A stretch of 64,000 nt of DNA from Bdellovibrionales bacterium RIFCSPHIGHO2_01_FULL_40_29 (GCA_001771815.1 MEPU01000012.1:1-64000); one strand, 5' to 3'; positions 9,730 through 24,454 are shown, numbered from the stretch's first letter. Program-made: numbers and translations. Notes: generated from the letters alone by a model not told the origin.

Positions 9730-10995
9730 TTATTTCTTCAAAAATTTACGATTAAAAAATTTAAACTCATGGCTAACAATGCCATCGCCACTATAAACAG
9801 TCGCATATCCTGTTTTGTTGGGATATAATGAAAAAACAAAATCGCTTGAAAAATCAATTGTCGTATTGTTCGGAATTGTAAACTCAGAAATTAGTAAATA
9901 ATCAGTCATTCTAATTTTTTTGAAAGTTCGTTTTTCTTTAACTGCATTTAAAGAAATATAACCCTCTTCTGTTAAATAAGACCTGTCGATTTGAACATAA
10001 CTCAAGTTCTCTGTATTTTTGTCATAGACTGACGAAATGACATTTATATTAGACATTGAACTTTTGCGTTGAAAGTAACTTGAAAATAATTGATTTCCAT
10101 CTGTTGTTATAAAAATAATTTCCTGATTTACATTATCATTGATAACTACATGCGGATTAAAAAATCTTCCAGAATTTTCTAAATAACCTTGAAAAGTTTT
10201 TGATTCAACCATGCTTTGAGTCATCAAATCATACAATATAAGAGTATGCTCTTTTTCAACTAAGGACGTTCTTAATAAAATTCGGTCAGGCTGACCTTGA
10301 AGAGTTGCAACCCATTTAGCTTTGGTAGCAAGGGCTCCCTTTTTTTCAAAAATCCATTGCTGCAAAGTCAATGTAGACTCCAAATTAATTTTTAAAATCT
10401 GGCCATCTGTTAGTGATGCCAAAAGCTCACCATTTTCATTTATATCCCCTGAGGCCAAACTAGATGAAGACAGTGGATCTATTTTAGATCCACCAACCCA
10501 AGATTTTAAAATATCACCTTGGTTTGATATTTTTAAAATACCAATAGAGTTCGCATCATCTTGAATAACCAGAAGTCCGATTTCTGGTCGAAAAGATGCA
10601 GATGTTGGCATGCCTAATAATTTAATCGGATTATCAATGACTTCCCCAGTGCTTTTAATCAGCGAAAATCCTTTTTGAGTTAATTCAACTACGTAGTTCC
10701 CAGCTTCGTTGTACAATAAAAAATGATCCTTAGCGGCTTTATCAAGCCCAGAATTTAGAGTTTTAATATGCTTTTTATTTTCCAAATCAAACAATTGAAT
10801 TTTTGAAATCGTTGAATCATATAAAGCGACAATTTTAGTCGCATCACCGGAATATGACGTTAAACTACTTTTTGATTCAAGCTTTTCACCGATACGATAA
10901 TCATCATCGGGATTATCTTGAGCCACTGGAGTACATGAAAATAAAAGCCCAGTCACTAAACTGGCAAAAATTAAAGTTAATTTATTAGAAAGCAT
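9730..10995 (-). CDS. Lipoprotein with propeller-like repeats
   Basis: The 421-residue product has a lipoprotein signal, LTLIFASLVTGLLFSC, with the lipid-bearing Cys at 21. The mature part consists of short beta-rich units (IVALYDSTISKIQLFDL, YVVELTQKGFSLI, LLVIQDDANSIGIL), suggesting a WD/NHL-like propeller, without a family I can name. It overlaps the upstream gene by 11 bp and is the last gene of an operon: TIGR02147 regulator (split by an IS), metallopeptidase-like protein, this lipoprotein. It probably sits in the outer or inner membrane leaflet facing the periplasm. Confidence 0.7.
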   Translation of the reverse strand: MLSNKLTLIFASLVTGLLFSCTPVAQDNPDDDYRIGEKLESKSSLTSYSGDATKIVALYDSTISKIQLFDLENKKHIKTLNSGLDKAAKDHFLLYNEAGNYVVELTQKGFSLIKSTGEVIDNPIKLLGMPTSASFRPEIGLLVIQDDANSIGILKISNQGDILKSWVGGSKIDPLSSSSLASGDINENGELLASLTDGQILKINLESTLTLQQWIFEKKGALATKAKWVATLQGQPDRILLRTSLVEKEHTLILYDLMTQSMVESKTFQGYLENSGRFFNPHVVINDNVNQEIIFITTDGNQLFSSYFQRKSSMSNINVISSVYDKNTENLSYVQIDRSYLTEEGYISLNAVKEKRTFKKIRMTDYLLISEFTIPNNTTIDFSSDFVFSLYPNKTGYATVYSGDGIVSHEFKFFNRKFLKK

Positions 10996-12166
10996 AGCTG
11001 ACTCCTAAGTTTGTAATTAAGCGACCTTTTGAATATTCAGCATCAACTTCTTTGTTTAAAGAATATCGTGGTGAATTATAACCTAAACCTGCTTGTAACC
11101 ATAGATCATGCTCTAGAGGCATGAAATAGGTACACTGAACTGTCAAAAAATTTGACGACGCCTTTTCTTGAACATGAAGAGGGTCTTCATCAAGTTTAAA
11201 CTCAGAAGTCAGAAAATCGAATGACAGAGCTCCTTCTATGTAACTTTGCCCCCAAAAGGACATTTCATTCGTTGAGGGTGAAAATCGATAGACACCACCT
11301 ATTCCAAATAAGTTCTGGCTATCCGAAGTTTTGATTGTATCCAGAGTCGTTTTTTCAGCACTGTAATGCGCCATTTTTGCAAAAAAGCCCGCTTCTTCTG
11401 TGAAATAATACTTCCCCGTAAAAACGTAGCCACGATAGTCTTCAGGAATATATAAAGTATCTAAATCCTCTTGTGCCTTAAAACCTGAATAGTCCAACTG
11501 AATCCAATACTTCTTATTTTTTCTAGATCGATTTAAATCGCTCACATGTTGCTGAGCTATTCTTTTTGAATTCGAGAGGACCACAATTGAAGCTGCTGCC
11601 GCATTCAGAAGCTCTCTGCCACCTGTTTCTGAATTAAAGGGACCAATAATTTGCTCATCTTGGATTGGTTTTTTATTCCAAGTCGATAAATGAAAAATCT
11701 CATGTGATATTAAAAAATTTCTTTCATATGACGGAAGCGCAATAAATCTATTCTTTTGAATTGTGATTCTGTTTTCTTTAAACTCAGTGATGGCATCTAC
11801 AGATAGATTTTGCCCTTTCTCTTTGACATAAATGGAATTCTCAGTCCAAACAAACTGAGTCGTTTTTTTTATTCTAGATGAAATTTCAGACGCATTTTCG
11901 ACTAAAAAATTTTGGCAAAATTCGATTTGTTTTTTTGTTAACTTTTCTAAGCTTCGGCAAACTGGGTAACTAGATAAAGAATCTGGGCATAGACACAGCT
12001 CTGATTTAATATCGGGTTTGATCACATCTAGTGTTTGTGAAATGACTTTCAAACTGATATTCAACTCTAGATCTTTTGCATTTCCACCATTACCAACAAA
12101 AGTTGAGCTTAATGCAAGGCTTGGCACTAAATAAGACATCACAAGCATTTTATAAAACGAAATCAT
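10985..12166 (-). CDS. Exported protein with HExxH motif and barrel-like C-terminus
   Basis: The 393-residue protein has a signal peptide (cleavage near residue 20). A central zincin-type motif, LISHEIFHLSTW, has H155, E156 and H159. The C-terminal 200 residues alternate polar and hydrophobic residues with aromatic ends and finish in GVSYAF; a terminal Phe is the usual recognition signal for outer membrane beta-barrels. It could thus be a metallopeptidase-like domain joined to a barrel. Third zinc ligand and activity are unproven. It overlaps the 3' part of the regulator by 4 bp (ATGA-type coupling) and the lipoprotein gene by 11 bp, so the three form one operon. Confidence 0.65.
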   Translation of the reverse strand: MISFYKMLVMSYLVPSLALSSTFVGNGGNAKDLELNISLKVISQTLDVIKPDIKSELCLCPDSLSSYPVCRSLEKLTKKQIEFCQNFLVENASEISSRIKKTTQFVWTENSIYVKEKGQNLSVDAITEFKENRITIQKNRFIALPSYERNFLISHEIFHLSTWNKKPIQDEQIIGPFNSETGGRELLNAAAASIVVLSNSKRIAQQHVSDLNRSRKNKKYWIQLDYSGFKAQEDLDTLYIPEDYRGYVFTGKYYFTEEAGFFAKMAHYSAEKTTLDTIKTSDSQNLFGIGGVYRFSPSTNEMSFWGQSYIEGALSFDFLTSEFKLDEDPLHVQEKASSNFLTVQCTYFMPLEHDLWLQAGLGYNSPRYSLNKEVDAEYSKGRLITNLGVSYAF

Positions 12167-12832
12167 ATATCTTTCCTTCCCGTAGGGACTAAGTTTAAAT
12201 TAAATTGATAAAGCTGGTCTTCGTTTGATGGCGTGATATCTTCAGTAAACTTTTTCAATTGCATTGAAAAATCTTGAATTAAACTGATCAAATCTTGATA
12301 CTTTTCAGGATTTAAAGGCAAAACCAAAGTATTCAAGTAACGTAAATTCATCGGTATTGTTTCAACTGAATTTTGCGCAATTTTCAAAGCGTTTTTATGA
12401 AACTGACGTATTCTTTGTGAAGGCGTTGGGCTTTCCGCAATTGCAAGTTCAGTTTCAATGACAATACGTCCGTCAATCGTTGTTCTCAAATACCCCTCAC
12501 GAAGTAAAAAATTTAAACTTTTTTGAATTCTTTTTCTGGAGCTAATATGTGCAAGCTGTGAAAAAATAAGTTCAGGATTTTTTTGTATGTTTTCTAGCTG
12601 AAAACAATCTTTGACGTAAACATTTAGCCAATCATTTAGTAAATTCAGCGAGACATTTTTCTTTTTCTCTGTTTTTTTATTTTCTAATTTTTCCTGAAAT
12701 TCTATTTCAAAATAAGGGTCAATTCTTTGCAGCCATTCTTTCAGGAAAATTTTTTCAGCATAGCTCAGTTGCAATAATTTTGAAACTTCGTCGATCCTGT
12801 CTAAGGTTAAATTTCTTTTCCCTTGGGTGATT
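12163..12832 (-). pseudogene. 3' part of a TIGR02147-family regulator split by an IS
   Basis: This segment encodes the last 221 residues of a TIGR02147 protein, beginning TQGKRNLTLDRIDEVSKLLQL and continuing through the DUF4423-type C-terminal domain to the stop at 12163. The open frame now starts 35 bp inside the insertion sequence (ATG 12867-12865), giving a chimeric 234-residue ORF whose first 13 residues come from the IS end. The real 5' part lies beyond the IS at 14280-14447. Joining both and removing one GATT target copy yields VSLI-TQGKRNLT in frame and a 277-residue protein, the family's normal length. The truncated product would lack half of its HTH. Confidence 0.88.
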
Positions 12833-12881
12833 TGTCTAGCTTTTTTTAGTTCGGACTTTTCAATCAATTTTTTAGGATAAT

Positions 12882-13883
12882 TTAATGCATATTTTTCATT
12901 CTTTCTTCAAAGTTTTTTTGTTTTCTAAGTTTTCTGGCAGATTCGATTTTTATTTTTCTTTCTGACAAGACTTGGTTTCCTCGACCAAAAAACATATCCG
13001 CTGGGCGCAAATATTTAATCCCCGCATGCAACCGCTGATGATTATATTGATAGCTGTAATCGTTTAACACGTCCCAGGCTTCTTGATATGATTGGGGGCT
13101 ATTGGGTCTGATAGCTTCTTGTTTTACGGTGCCGTTAAGGCGTTCGATTTTTCCATTTGTTTGCGGGTGATTCCGTCTGGTAAAAACTTGCTGGATCTCA
13201 AGTCTGCAAAGTAATTTTTTAAACTCATGACTGATAAACTGACTGCCGTTATCGTTGATTAATTTTGGCTTTGCAAATGGATATTTATCTTTCACACGCT
13301 GAACAAAGTTTTCAACGCTTGAACCCAGCATGTCGGACATTAATTCCCAGTCCAGCATGTACCTTGAGTAACCATCCAACATCATAATTAAAAAGTAAAA
13401 TATTCCATTTATTTTTATATACGCGATGTCCGTATGCCAATGATGATGAACGTGTTTTGGCTTGTGCTGGTATTCTTTTTTGGTGTCACCGTTGTCGACT
13501 TTGTTCCAGCCCTGAAGTCGATTATTCTCGGATAAGATGTCGTAGACTTTTGACTCTGATAAATGCGCAATATTCTCATCAACCATCTGCCAACAAAACT
13601 TCCTATAGCCGATGTCACTGTACAGATCACGATGCTTCAGGACCGCATCAACTTCGTCTTGTCTAACTGAAGCAATATTGTCCGTTATGATTTTTCTAGG
13701 CGCCGCCTCTGGAAAACTGACCCATCCATGGTATGTTGATTTTTTAATATTATAAAAACTTAAAATTTGAGTTAAACTTAAAAATTCAAACCTTTCTTTT
13801 TTTCGCTCAACATCGGCAATAATTTCTAATCGTAAAATTGGATTTATAAAAGCTGACTTATCTATTCCCCAAGACTTTTTTTT
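12882..13883 (-). CDS. IS3-family transposase OrfB (DDE integrase core)
   Basis: The orfB frame is open from the slippery site at 13883 to the stop at 12882, but has no early start codon; the first Met is at 13586. The N-terminal part (KKSWGIDKSAFINPILRLEI, then FLSLTQILSFYNIKKSTYH) is the usual linker/HTH_21 region. The rve catalytic core shows HTDIAYIKI (first Asp), LINDNGSQFIS (second Asp) and HPQTNGKIERLNG (Glu). It is expected to be made only as an OrfAB fusion by -1 frameshifting. All catalytic residues are present. Confidence 0.92.
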   Translation of the reverse strand, partial: KKKSWGIDKSAFINPILRLEIIADVERKKERFEFLSLTQILSFYNIKKSTYHGWVSFPEAAPRKIITDNIASVRQDEVDAVLKHRDLYSDIGYRKFCWQMVDENIAHLSESKVYDILSENNRLQGWNKVDNGDTKKEYQHKPKHVHHHWHTDIAYIKINGIFYFLIMMLDGYSRYMLDWELMSDMLGSSVENFVQRVKDKYPFAKPKLINDNGSQFISHEFKKLLCRLEIQQVFTRRNHPQTNGKIERLNGTVKQEAIRPNSPQSYQEAWDVLNDYSYQYNHQRLHAGIKYLRPADMFFGRGNQVLSERKIKIESARKLRKQKNFEERMKNMH

Positions 13884-14182
13884 AACTCAATGTTTTCTTG
13901 GACAATTTCAGTAATCGCAGCCTGCATTTTTTGAATTTTTTGCTCCTGCTCAGCGATTTTCCGAAGCTCTGCCTTTGTGGCACCTTCATCAGATTTTTTG
14001 AAATTATCAAGCGCCCCTTTTAAAAACTTTTCTTGCCACTTATAAAAATTACCAGCGCTGATATCATACTTTTTGCAAATATCCGTAACTGAAGTTCTTG
14101 TCGTCATTTGCTCTTTAATGATTTTAAATTTCTGGTCTGGTGAAAACTTTCGGCGTGGTGTATTCTCAGAATCTGAACTCAT
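13862..14182 (-). CDS. IS3-family transposase OrfA (HTH protein)
   Basis: The 106-residue protein carries the HTH_Tnp_1 fold: RRKFSPDQKFKIIKEQM, then SVTDICKKYDISAGNFYKW, followed by a leucine-zipper-like coiled coil (LRKIAEQEQKIQKMQAAITEI). It binds the element's ends and, without the OrfB fusion, usually acts as an inhibitor of transposition. AGAGGT a few bases before ATG 14182 is the ribosome binding site. Its last codons contain the run A8G (13883-13875 on the minus strand), where a -1 shift gives OrfAB. Confidence 0.92.
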   Translation of the reverse strand: MSSDSENTPRRKFSPDQKFKIIKEQMTTRTSVTDICKKYDISAGNFYKWQEKFLKGALDNFKKSDEGATKAELRKIAEQEQKIQKMQAAITEIVQENIELKKSLGE

Positions 14183-14279
14183 TAGGACCTCTTTCTCAGC
14201 TTATTTTAGAAAGAGTTTCTGAATTAAAACATCTCCTAAATTATTGCGTCAAAAGTCTGATTAACAAAAAAGCGGGACA

Positions 14280-14447
14280 GATTAATGAAACCAATGTTGG
14301 AGAAATTTTTCTTAAACCTAGACATTGCCTGTGGACTGAATATCTAGGCACTGTTTTTTTTAAATACAAAATCTGATCCTTAATAAATAAGGCTATACTT
14401 TTGTAGTTATGAAGTATTGGCTTACGATCTGATAAATCTTTGTTCAT
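14280..14447 (-). pseudogene. 5' part of the TIGR02147 regulator split by the IS
   Basis: From ATG 14447 this fragment encodes 56 residues. IKDQILYLKKTVPRYSVHRQ and CLGLRKISPTLVSLI form the first part of the TIGR02147 N-terminal HTH region. The IS begins immediately after the codon for Ile56 (14282-14280). Read into the IS, the frame adds 12 foreign residues and stops at 14241. The continuation is at 12832 and below. The promoter of the original regulator-peptidase-lipoprotein operon should lie just upstream of 14447, so the downstream genes now depend on read-through of the IS or on a promoter within it. Confidence 0.85.
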
Positions 14448-14741
14448 AAAAACACAAAACCATAAATAATAAACAATTACAATAGGATATCTTTCAATAT
14501 AATTTACAATGTAAAAATTAATAACCCTTAAAATGAGCCATTAAGCACTATGGAAACTATAAGCCCTAATAAAGCAAAAACTACACTTAATGAAATTAAG
14601 AAAAGATACGAATCGTTGATTCCCTACCCTTTTTTACAGTGTCGATTTTCTTTACAATTCAATAATAAATACTCGGCAATAAAATCTTATCCATTAGTTT
14701 TTCTTACTTGTGTTAACTTGCTCCAAATCAAGGAGTATTTT

Positions 14742-23611: not shown

Positions 23612-24454
23612 ATGAGCAAAATAATTAAACCCGATCTTTTTCAGTTTCATGATCACATTTATTTTTTGAATGAATGGTTTAGTTATTTAAAATCAACCAA
23701 AAGAGAATTTAACTTACGTGAACTTTCTAAAAAATCTCAGATCTCTGTAGCGAATTTATCGATGCTTTTAAAGCGCCAGAGACCATTAACTGAAAAGACT
23801 TTTTTTAAACTAGCCCCGTTTCTAAACCTCAATGACATGGAAAAAAAATTTTTGAACTTATTACGAATTGTCGATCAATCCGAAGATGCTGAAACCCGCC
23901 TGATGGCCTTAAATCAAATCGTCAAAATAGCAAAATTTCGTGAAAATAATTCTCAAGAATTTAAAGCATACGAATACTTGACCAAGTGGTTTTATGTCTC
24001 AATTTTTGAGATGAGCGCACTTGAAGATTTCAAACTGGACGCAGAGTGGATCCAGAATCACTTAATTAAGCCGATCTCTATCGCTGAAATTCAGCAAGCA
24101 ATTCAGTTTTTGTTAAAGCAAAATTTTTTGAAACAGAATGCTGATGGATCGATAAAGCAGATACGCTCACATTTGGATTGTCGCGAAGGAATTTTCAAAG
24201 TCAGTCTTGGCGCATTCCACCGACAAATGCTAGATCTAGCCGGATATGCAATTGAAAACATTTCCCGCGAAGACCGCATAATAATGGGTCAGACGATGGC
24301 CATAGCAAAAGAAGATTTTGAGCAGATTAAAGAAATTATTAACAATGCTATCTTAAATATTAATAAAATTAATTCAAAAACTGAAAGAAAAGACGCAGTT
24401 TATCATGTCGAAATAGCTGCTTTTCCATTAAGCCTTAAATCAAAGGAAATCTAA
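23612..24454 (+). CDS. TIGR02147-family regulator
   Basis: The 280-residue protein has the TIGR02147 layout: N-terminal HTH at about 20-60 (FNLRELSKKSQISVANLSML, then KRQRPLTEKTFFKLAPFL), a middle winged-helix-like segment, and the DUF4423-type C-terminus (FEQIKEIINNAILNINKIN, then a strand-like end VYHVEIAAFPLS). The family is common in Bdellovibrios and Fibrobacteres and is usually found beside exported proteins. It starts 83 bp after one lipoprotein gene and its stop is 1 bp before the paralogous one, so it probably controls both. Ligand unknown. Confidence 0.85.
   Translation: MSKIIKPDLFQFHDHIYFLNEWFSYLKSTKREFNLRELSKKSQISVANLSMLLKRQRPLTEKTFFKLAPFLNLNDMEKKFLNLLRIVDQSEDAETRLMALNQIVKIAKFRENNSQEFKAYEYLTKWFYVSIFEMSALEDFKLDAEWIQNHLIKPISIAEIQQAIQFLLKQNFLKQNADGSIKQIRSHLDCREGIFKVSLGAFHRQMLDLAGYAIENISREDRIIMGQTMAIAKEDFEQIKEIINNAILNINKINSKTERKDAVYHVEIAAFPLSLKSKEI

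Follow-up and report, generated by a model that had tools for sequence, protein, structure and literature searches.

An insertion sequence (IS) of the IS3 family interrupts the gene for a TIGR02147 regulator which, judged by gene order in relatives, heads a conserved cell-envelope operon of three genes. Insertion of the element into the regulator gene of a self-regulating envelope module is the best overall explanation of the locus and, in our view, a very likely one. The event itself is ordinary biology, disruption of genes by IS elements being routine. Its added value is that a member of the TIGR02147 family is tied to a candidate DNA site and to a three-gene target operon, and the natural null allele together with the candidate site makes the role of TIGR02147 directly testable. 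Positions are those of the window, the whole stretch of 64,000 nucleotides analysed. The element and the two parts of the interrupted gene are made up as follows.

12833-14279, minus strand: IS3-family insertion sequence of 1447 bp, single copy in the genome, with ends TGTCTAGC / TGTCCCGC (inverted) and a GATT duplication
12829-12832: left copy of the target-site duplication GATT (from the sequence)
14280-14283: right copy of the target-site duplication GATT (from the sequence)
13862-14182, minus strand: transposase orfA, 106 aa, HTH_Tnp_1 (PF01527, 45.6 bits)
12882-13886, minus strand: transposase orfB frame, 334 codons open, DDE integrase core (PF00665, 59.9 bits)
13876-13883, minus strand: A8G run where orfA and orfB overlap, probably a slippery site for -1 frameshifting (from the sequence)
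14280-14447, minus strand: 5' part of the regulator gene, residues 1-56 with predicted HTH helices 1-3 (from the junction, orthologue alignment and model)
12163-12832, minus strand: 3' part of the regulator gene, residues 57-277 and stop codon, with predicted HTH helices 4-5, linker and DUF4423 with winged helix (PF14394, TIGR02147)

The borders of the element were fixed by comparison with two diverged relatives (78% and 74% DNA identity), the nearest found, which sit in genomes of the same family. Both align over positions 1-1447 of the query, and their first and last bases are identical to those of the element here (TGTCTAGC...GCGGGACA). As both relatives share the exact ends, the boundaries do not depend on the terminal repeats alone. 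The original prediction had placed the IS exactly at 12833-14279 with GATT on both sides, and this agrees with the sequence and with the ends of the relatives. Its wording 'matching ends' was somewhat generous for the repeats, which are imperfect (15 of 29 positions identical without gaps). Terminal inverted repeats with a short target duplication, as known from the IS3 family, are present. The relatives, G087:C46 and G022:C21, are not flanked by matching tetranucleotides as the element here is, and are therefore probably older or rearranged copies. Besides its related IS, G022 has the module itself, intact, at another place in its genome.

The orfB gene lies in the -1 frame relative to orfA. 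By comparison with known IS3 frameshift signals the A8G run is probably the slippery site, frameshifting itself being predicted; neither of the two related IS copies was found to contain it. The fused, frameshifted OrfAB product scored 178 bits against the NCBIfam IS3 model NF033516 (cut-off 160), and the separate orfA and orfB frames scored below that cut-off. The D-(35)-E spacing of the DDE triad typical of IS3 is intact. The element looks complete and potentially active, and its transcription runs parallel to that of the interrupted gene and of the genes that follow. With the IS3 family it shares two overlapping frames, an A-rich slip site, DD(35)E, TG...CA ends, a 4-bp target duplication and a fused product above the NCBIfam cut-off; it differs in that no identical copy was found in the 141 genomes searched. 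A search of these genomes, all of the same order, for a donor yielded no near-identical copy either, and all relatives on plasmids were <60% identical, about 35% at best.

Once the IS and one copy of GATT are removed, the flanks form a single 834-nt frame, with 277 codons before the stop codon and no internal stops; the halves rejoin in frame as had been proposed. The 3' part alone scored 76 bits against PF14394 and 66.7 bits against TIGR02147. The joined protein reached 78.2 bits against TIGR02147 (cut-off 50), 11.5 above the 3' piece, with a match starting at residue 14 (profile position 6), which upholds the assignment to this family. The 56 residues of the 5' part are too short to match the TIGR02147 model on their own. 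They can be aligned to intact orthologues as far as the junction (up to 52% identity, best E 5e-13) and, the joined match beginning at residue 14, the similarity of residues 1-56 to the family is also confirmed. We searched for the opposite case, an IS-free relative whose gene does not join at this point: all 15 orthologous genes from other genomes, about 43-57% identical to the regulator, are continuous across the junction. The best intact orthologue is 57% identical. The protein thus shares with TIGR02147 / DUF4423 (PF14394) a score above the curated cut-off and a DUF4423 domain in its 3' part, and differs in that the gene is broken here.

In an alignment of 16 module members, none of the 40 invariant columns is changed in the regulator of the window. 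Its identity to the other members is as predicted from the barrel gene of the module (mean residual -0.7, SD 3.9). The perfect duplication, the intact transposase and the lack of excess change in the broken gene support a recent insertion. The earlier description of the event as recent, and of the pieces as otherwise undamaged, is in keeping with these data, which show no decay and give no date.

A structural model of the nearest orthologue, used in place of the joined sequence itself, had modest overall confidence (mean pLDDT 68.6, pTM 0.37). Within it the N-terminal five-helix HTH domain is confident (block pLDDT mostly 88-93), with helices at residues 18-32, 38-44, 50-57, 65-74 and 79-92. 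The IS cuts after residue 56 (SPTLVSLI/TQGKR), so that the insertion hits the end of the third helix (50-57), the predicted recognition helix. The stretch around the junction is strongly conserved among the module members (SPxLvSLi-x-x-x-KR). The HTH part (residues 16-92) matches the ComR DNA-binding domain with Z 7.2, the Foldseek E-values for likeness to XRE-type proteins not being significant; a sequence search of solved structures with the regulator gave only weak matches to the HigA HTH. With XRE-type regulators (ComR DNA-binding domain, lambda repressor, restriction controller proteins) the protein shares the five-helix N-terminal domain and a palindromic site adjoining its own gene. It differs from them in an additional winged-helix-like region (about residues 105-185 of the model) and the DUF4423 carboxy terminus.

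The two genes that follow the regulator are:

10985-12166, minus strand: second gene, 393 aa, with signal peptide, zincin-like HExxH domain and 8-stranded outer-membrane barrel (from model and alignment)
9730-10995, minus strand: third gene, lipoprotein of 421 aa, probable beta-propeller, overlapping the second gene by 11 bp (invariant Cys21)

In 15 relatives the gene next to the intact regulator encodes the barrel protein, and the lipoprotein comes third wherever the contig extends that far. The operon described before (regulator, metallopeptidase-like barrel protein, lipoprotein) holds. The second gene overlaps the regulator by 4 bp. Overlaps of 4 bp and 11 bp are usual in the module loci and point to translational coupling. 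The distribution of the module is patchy: of 14 genomes in the genus, 4 have the barrel gene, and of 369 genomes in the phylum, 29 contain some match to its protein, distant ones included. Holders of the locus include Bdellovibrio sp., Bdellovibrionaceae and MAGs of Oligoflexales/Oligoflexia. Four genomes (G014, G071, G073 and G133; loci L101, L098, L097 and L102) contain a distant pair, consisting of a regulator and a protein sharing the zincin part only, which has no barrel or lipoprotein matches and no TTTAC-NNN-GTAAA. PADLOC had no match at the locus, so that a reading as a defence system was rejected. A phage origin is likewise unsupported, as PHROGs gave no significant match for the module genes. 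The operon and its putative DNA control site appear to be undescribed.

The model of the second protein is of good confidence (pLDDT 85.5). It has eight strands at residues 220-392, matching the OmpA barrel with Z 17.6, and the signal peptide and the C-terminal aromatic Phe393 complete the features of an 8-stranded barrel. In its C-terminal barrel the protein thus resembles barrels of the OmpA/OmpX/NspA type. Residues 23-201 have a fold like that of deuterolysin (Z 10.6 over 150 residues, rmsd 3.8, 12% identity). A sequence search of solved structures with the HExxH part gave matches to MJ1213/proabylysin, and this part resembles minigluzincins. In the orthologues H155, E156, H159 and D170 are invariant, the last being a candidate third zinc ligand. 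The aspzincin (M35) signature consists of HExxH and GTxDxxYG. HExxH is invariant, but GTxDxxYG was not seen in the alignment of the barrel protein, and for this reason we say only that the N-terminal domain 'resembles' deuterolysin; with deuterolysin and AsaP1 it shares HExxH and a similar fold, and it is set apart by the low identity and the missing GTxDxxYG. Both ends of such 8-stranded barrels face the periplasm, hence the zincin domain should be located there. We infer that the HExxH domain is a protease. In the omptin outer-membrane proteases the barrel itself is the protease, whereas a separate N-terminal periplasmic zincin-like domain is proposed here. No family model for a barrel-anchored zincin was present in the libraries searched. 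In the third protein, Cys21 is invariant and lies in a lipobox-like signal. Propeller matches were weak throughout, also in the sequence search of solved structures, and the protein is probably a beta-propeller.

Upstream of the regulator start, two conserved elements were found:

14503-14515, minus strand: palindrome TTTACATTGTAAA, a putative operator that lies 68 bp ahead of the start of the regulator gene (from conservation in the module loci)
14480-14482, minus strand: TTG, candidate -35 element at a fixed distance from the operator (from TTG spacing in the module loci)

Of the 16 module loci, 15 have TTTAC-NNN-GTAAA upstream of the regulator gene, and the other has it with one mismatch. 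The palindrome TTTACANNGTAAA was common to all 11 loci of the first set. Five later loci served as a test: three contain TTTACANNGTAAA, one contains TTTACTTTGTAAA, which also conforms to TTTAC-NNN-GTAAA, and one has the single mismatch. The chance expectation for the palindrome is about 0.00017 per 220 bp. In the host genome (2.93 Mb), TTTACANTGTAAA and TTTACAWWGTAAA each occur once, at 14503-14515. None of the four distant regulator homologues with a barrel-less partner has the palindrome nearby. From these data we infer that the regulator binds the palindrome and regulates its own gene.

A TTG starting 31-35 bases past the first base of the palindrome is present in 13 of the 16 loci, against a background of 12%. 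No -10 hexamer is clearly conserved among them, and the promoter assignment is for this reason tentative. The centre of the putative operator lies about 27 bp upstream of the TTG; if the latter is read as the -35 box, the centre would be near -61, the position of a class I activator. Class I activation is a preference and not a result, and we lean only slightly towards activation over repression.

We propose that a recent transposition brought a complete IS3-family element into the leading gene of the module in a Bdellovibrionaceae genome. The intact regulator, a TIGR02147/DUF4423 protein with an N-terminal XRE-like HTH, would most likely bind TTTAC-NNN-GTAAA as a dimer and control its own operon. 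The latter would encode two products that probably act jointly: an outer-membrane barrel whose zincin-like protease domain lies in the periplasm, and an outer-membrane lipoprotein. With HTH helices 1-3 on one piece and helices 4-5 on the other, neither product should be able to bind the operator. The putative operator and both structural genes are intact after the insertion. The operon would now be off, or be driven only by transcription from the co-oriented IS. Changed expression of the operon, which the original prediction took to be a necessary outcome, is reasonable to expect, and the change may go in either direction, because the co-oriented IS could drive the downstream genes. With an activating regulator the operon would be off unless the IS drives it; with a repressing one it would be on. 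Scans of the IS for outward promoter-like sites and for terminators gave counts equal to those in shuffled sequences.

Several other readings were weighed against this proposal. An assembly artefact, in which two loci were joined via an IS copy, is extremely improbable: the genome is a draft (13 contigs, 2.93 Mb) and IS copies commonly break assemblies, but the element is the sole full match in its own genome, for which reason a join through a multicopy IS was rejected. Moreover, the same 4-bp duplication stands on both flanks, and the joined gene is orthologous to those of relatives and has the usual operon after it. It is quite conceivable, though somewhat short of an even chance, that the module is dispensable and being lost, the IS representing a neutral hit of no regulatory significance. 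Such a course is compatible with the molecular reading given above and would suit the patchy distribution of the module in the genus and the phylum; against it, the barrel and lipoprotein genes are open and undamaged and the regulator pieces show no excess change.

The remaining alternatives concern the effect on the operon. A regulator that represses its own operon would make the strain a natural constitutive mutant, in which the insertion derepresses the barrel protease and the lipoprotein. XRE-type autoregulators are very often repressors, the putative operator and the downstream genes are preserved, the barrel gene has a good ribosome site of its own (GGAAGGA before ATG), and no terminator-like site was found on the minus strand of the IS. 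However, the palindrome does not overlap the conserved TTG but precedes it by 27 bp, which suits an activator better, and promoter-like matches are no commoner than in shuffles; we regard repression as somewhat less likely than not. It is unlikely that the 3' piece is made as a functional fusion from a start within the IS and keeps some role via the winged-helix/DUF4423 part. A continuous frame of 234 codons does lead from the IS into the 3' piece, comprising a TTG at 12867, 12 IS-encoded residues and then residue 57 onwards, and the winged-helix-like region of the model falls within it, yet the TTG is not preceded by a ribosome site and the HTH recognition helix is missing.

Interruption of a self-regulating module, the reading we prefer, leads to a wider and more tentative proposal, which we hold to be possible at somewhat less than even probability: an undescribed envelope system of the Bdellovibrionota which regulates itself, consisting of a TIGR02147 activator with a private operator and, under its control, a novel type of outer-membrane protease, its zincin domain fixed in the periplasm by an 8-stranded barrel, with a propeller lipoprotein as partner. 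If true, TIGR02147 would have its first predicted regulon, and the strain with the IS would be a natural knock-out of the regulator. The database entries for TIGR02147 / DUF4423 state no function for the family, and in the literature searched we found nothing on TIGR02147 and a single paper that mentions DUF4423.

About ten further TIGR02147 paralogues are encoded in the host genome and might cross-regulate the module. At two of these loci (L075 and L076; C4:93000-101500 and C10:101000-109000 of the same genome) the paralogue is followed by signal-peptide proteins with 4-bp overlaps. Some of the latter begin their mature part with IGNGG (VIGNGGDPLVFDF, KIGNGGNVVLC), a motif resembling STFVGNGG of the barrel protein, and the pairing of a TIGR02147 regulator with a GNGG envelope protein may be general. 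At five loci (L074, L075, L076, L077 and L082) the regulator gene is preceded, at a distance of no more than about 90 bp, by a palindrome that differs from locus to locus, for example TGTTTCAAATTCTGAAACA and GCGAACACTTTGTTCGC; these may be private operators, one for each paralogue. The window itself contains another intact TIGR02147 protein (23612-24454, plus strand), followed by a probable lipoprotein, and a palindrome with 12-bp arms is located upstream of its gene.
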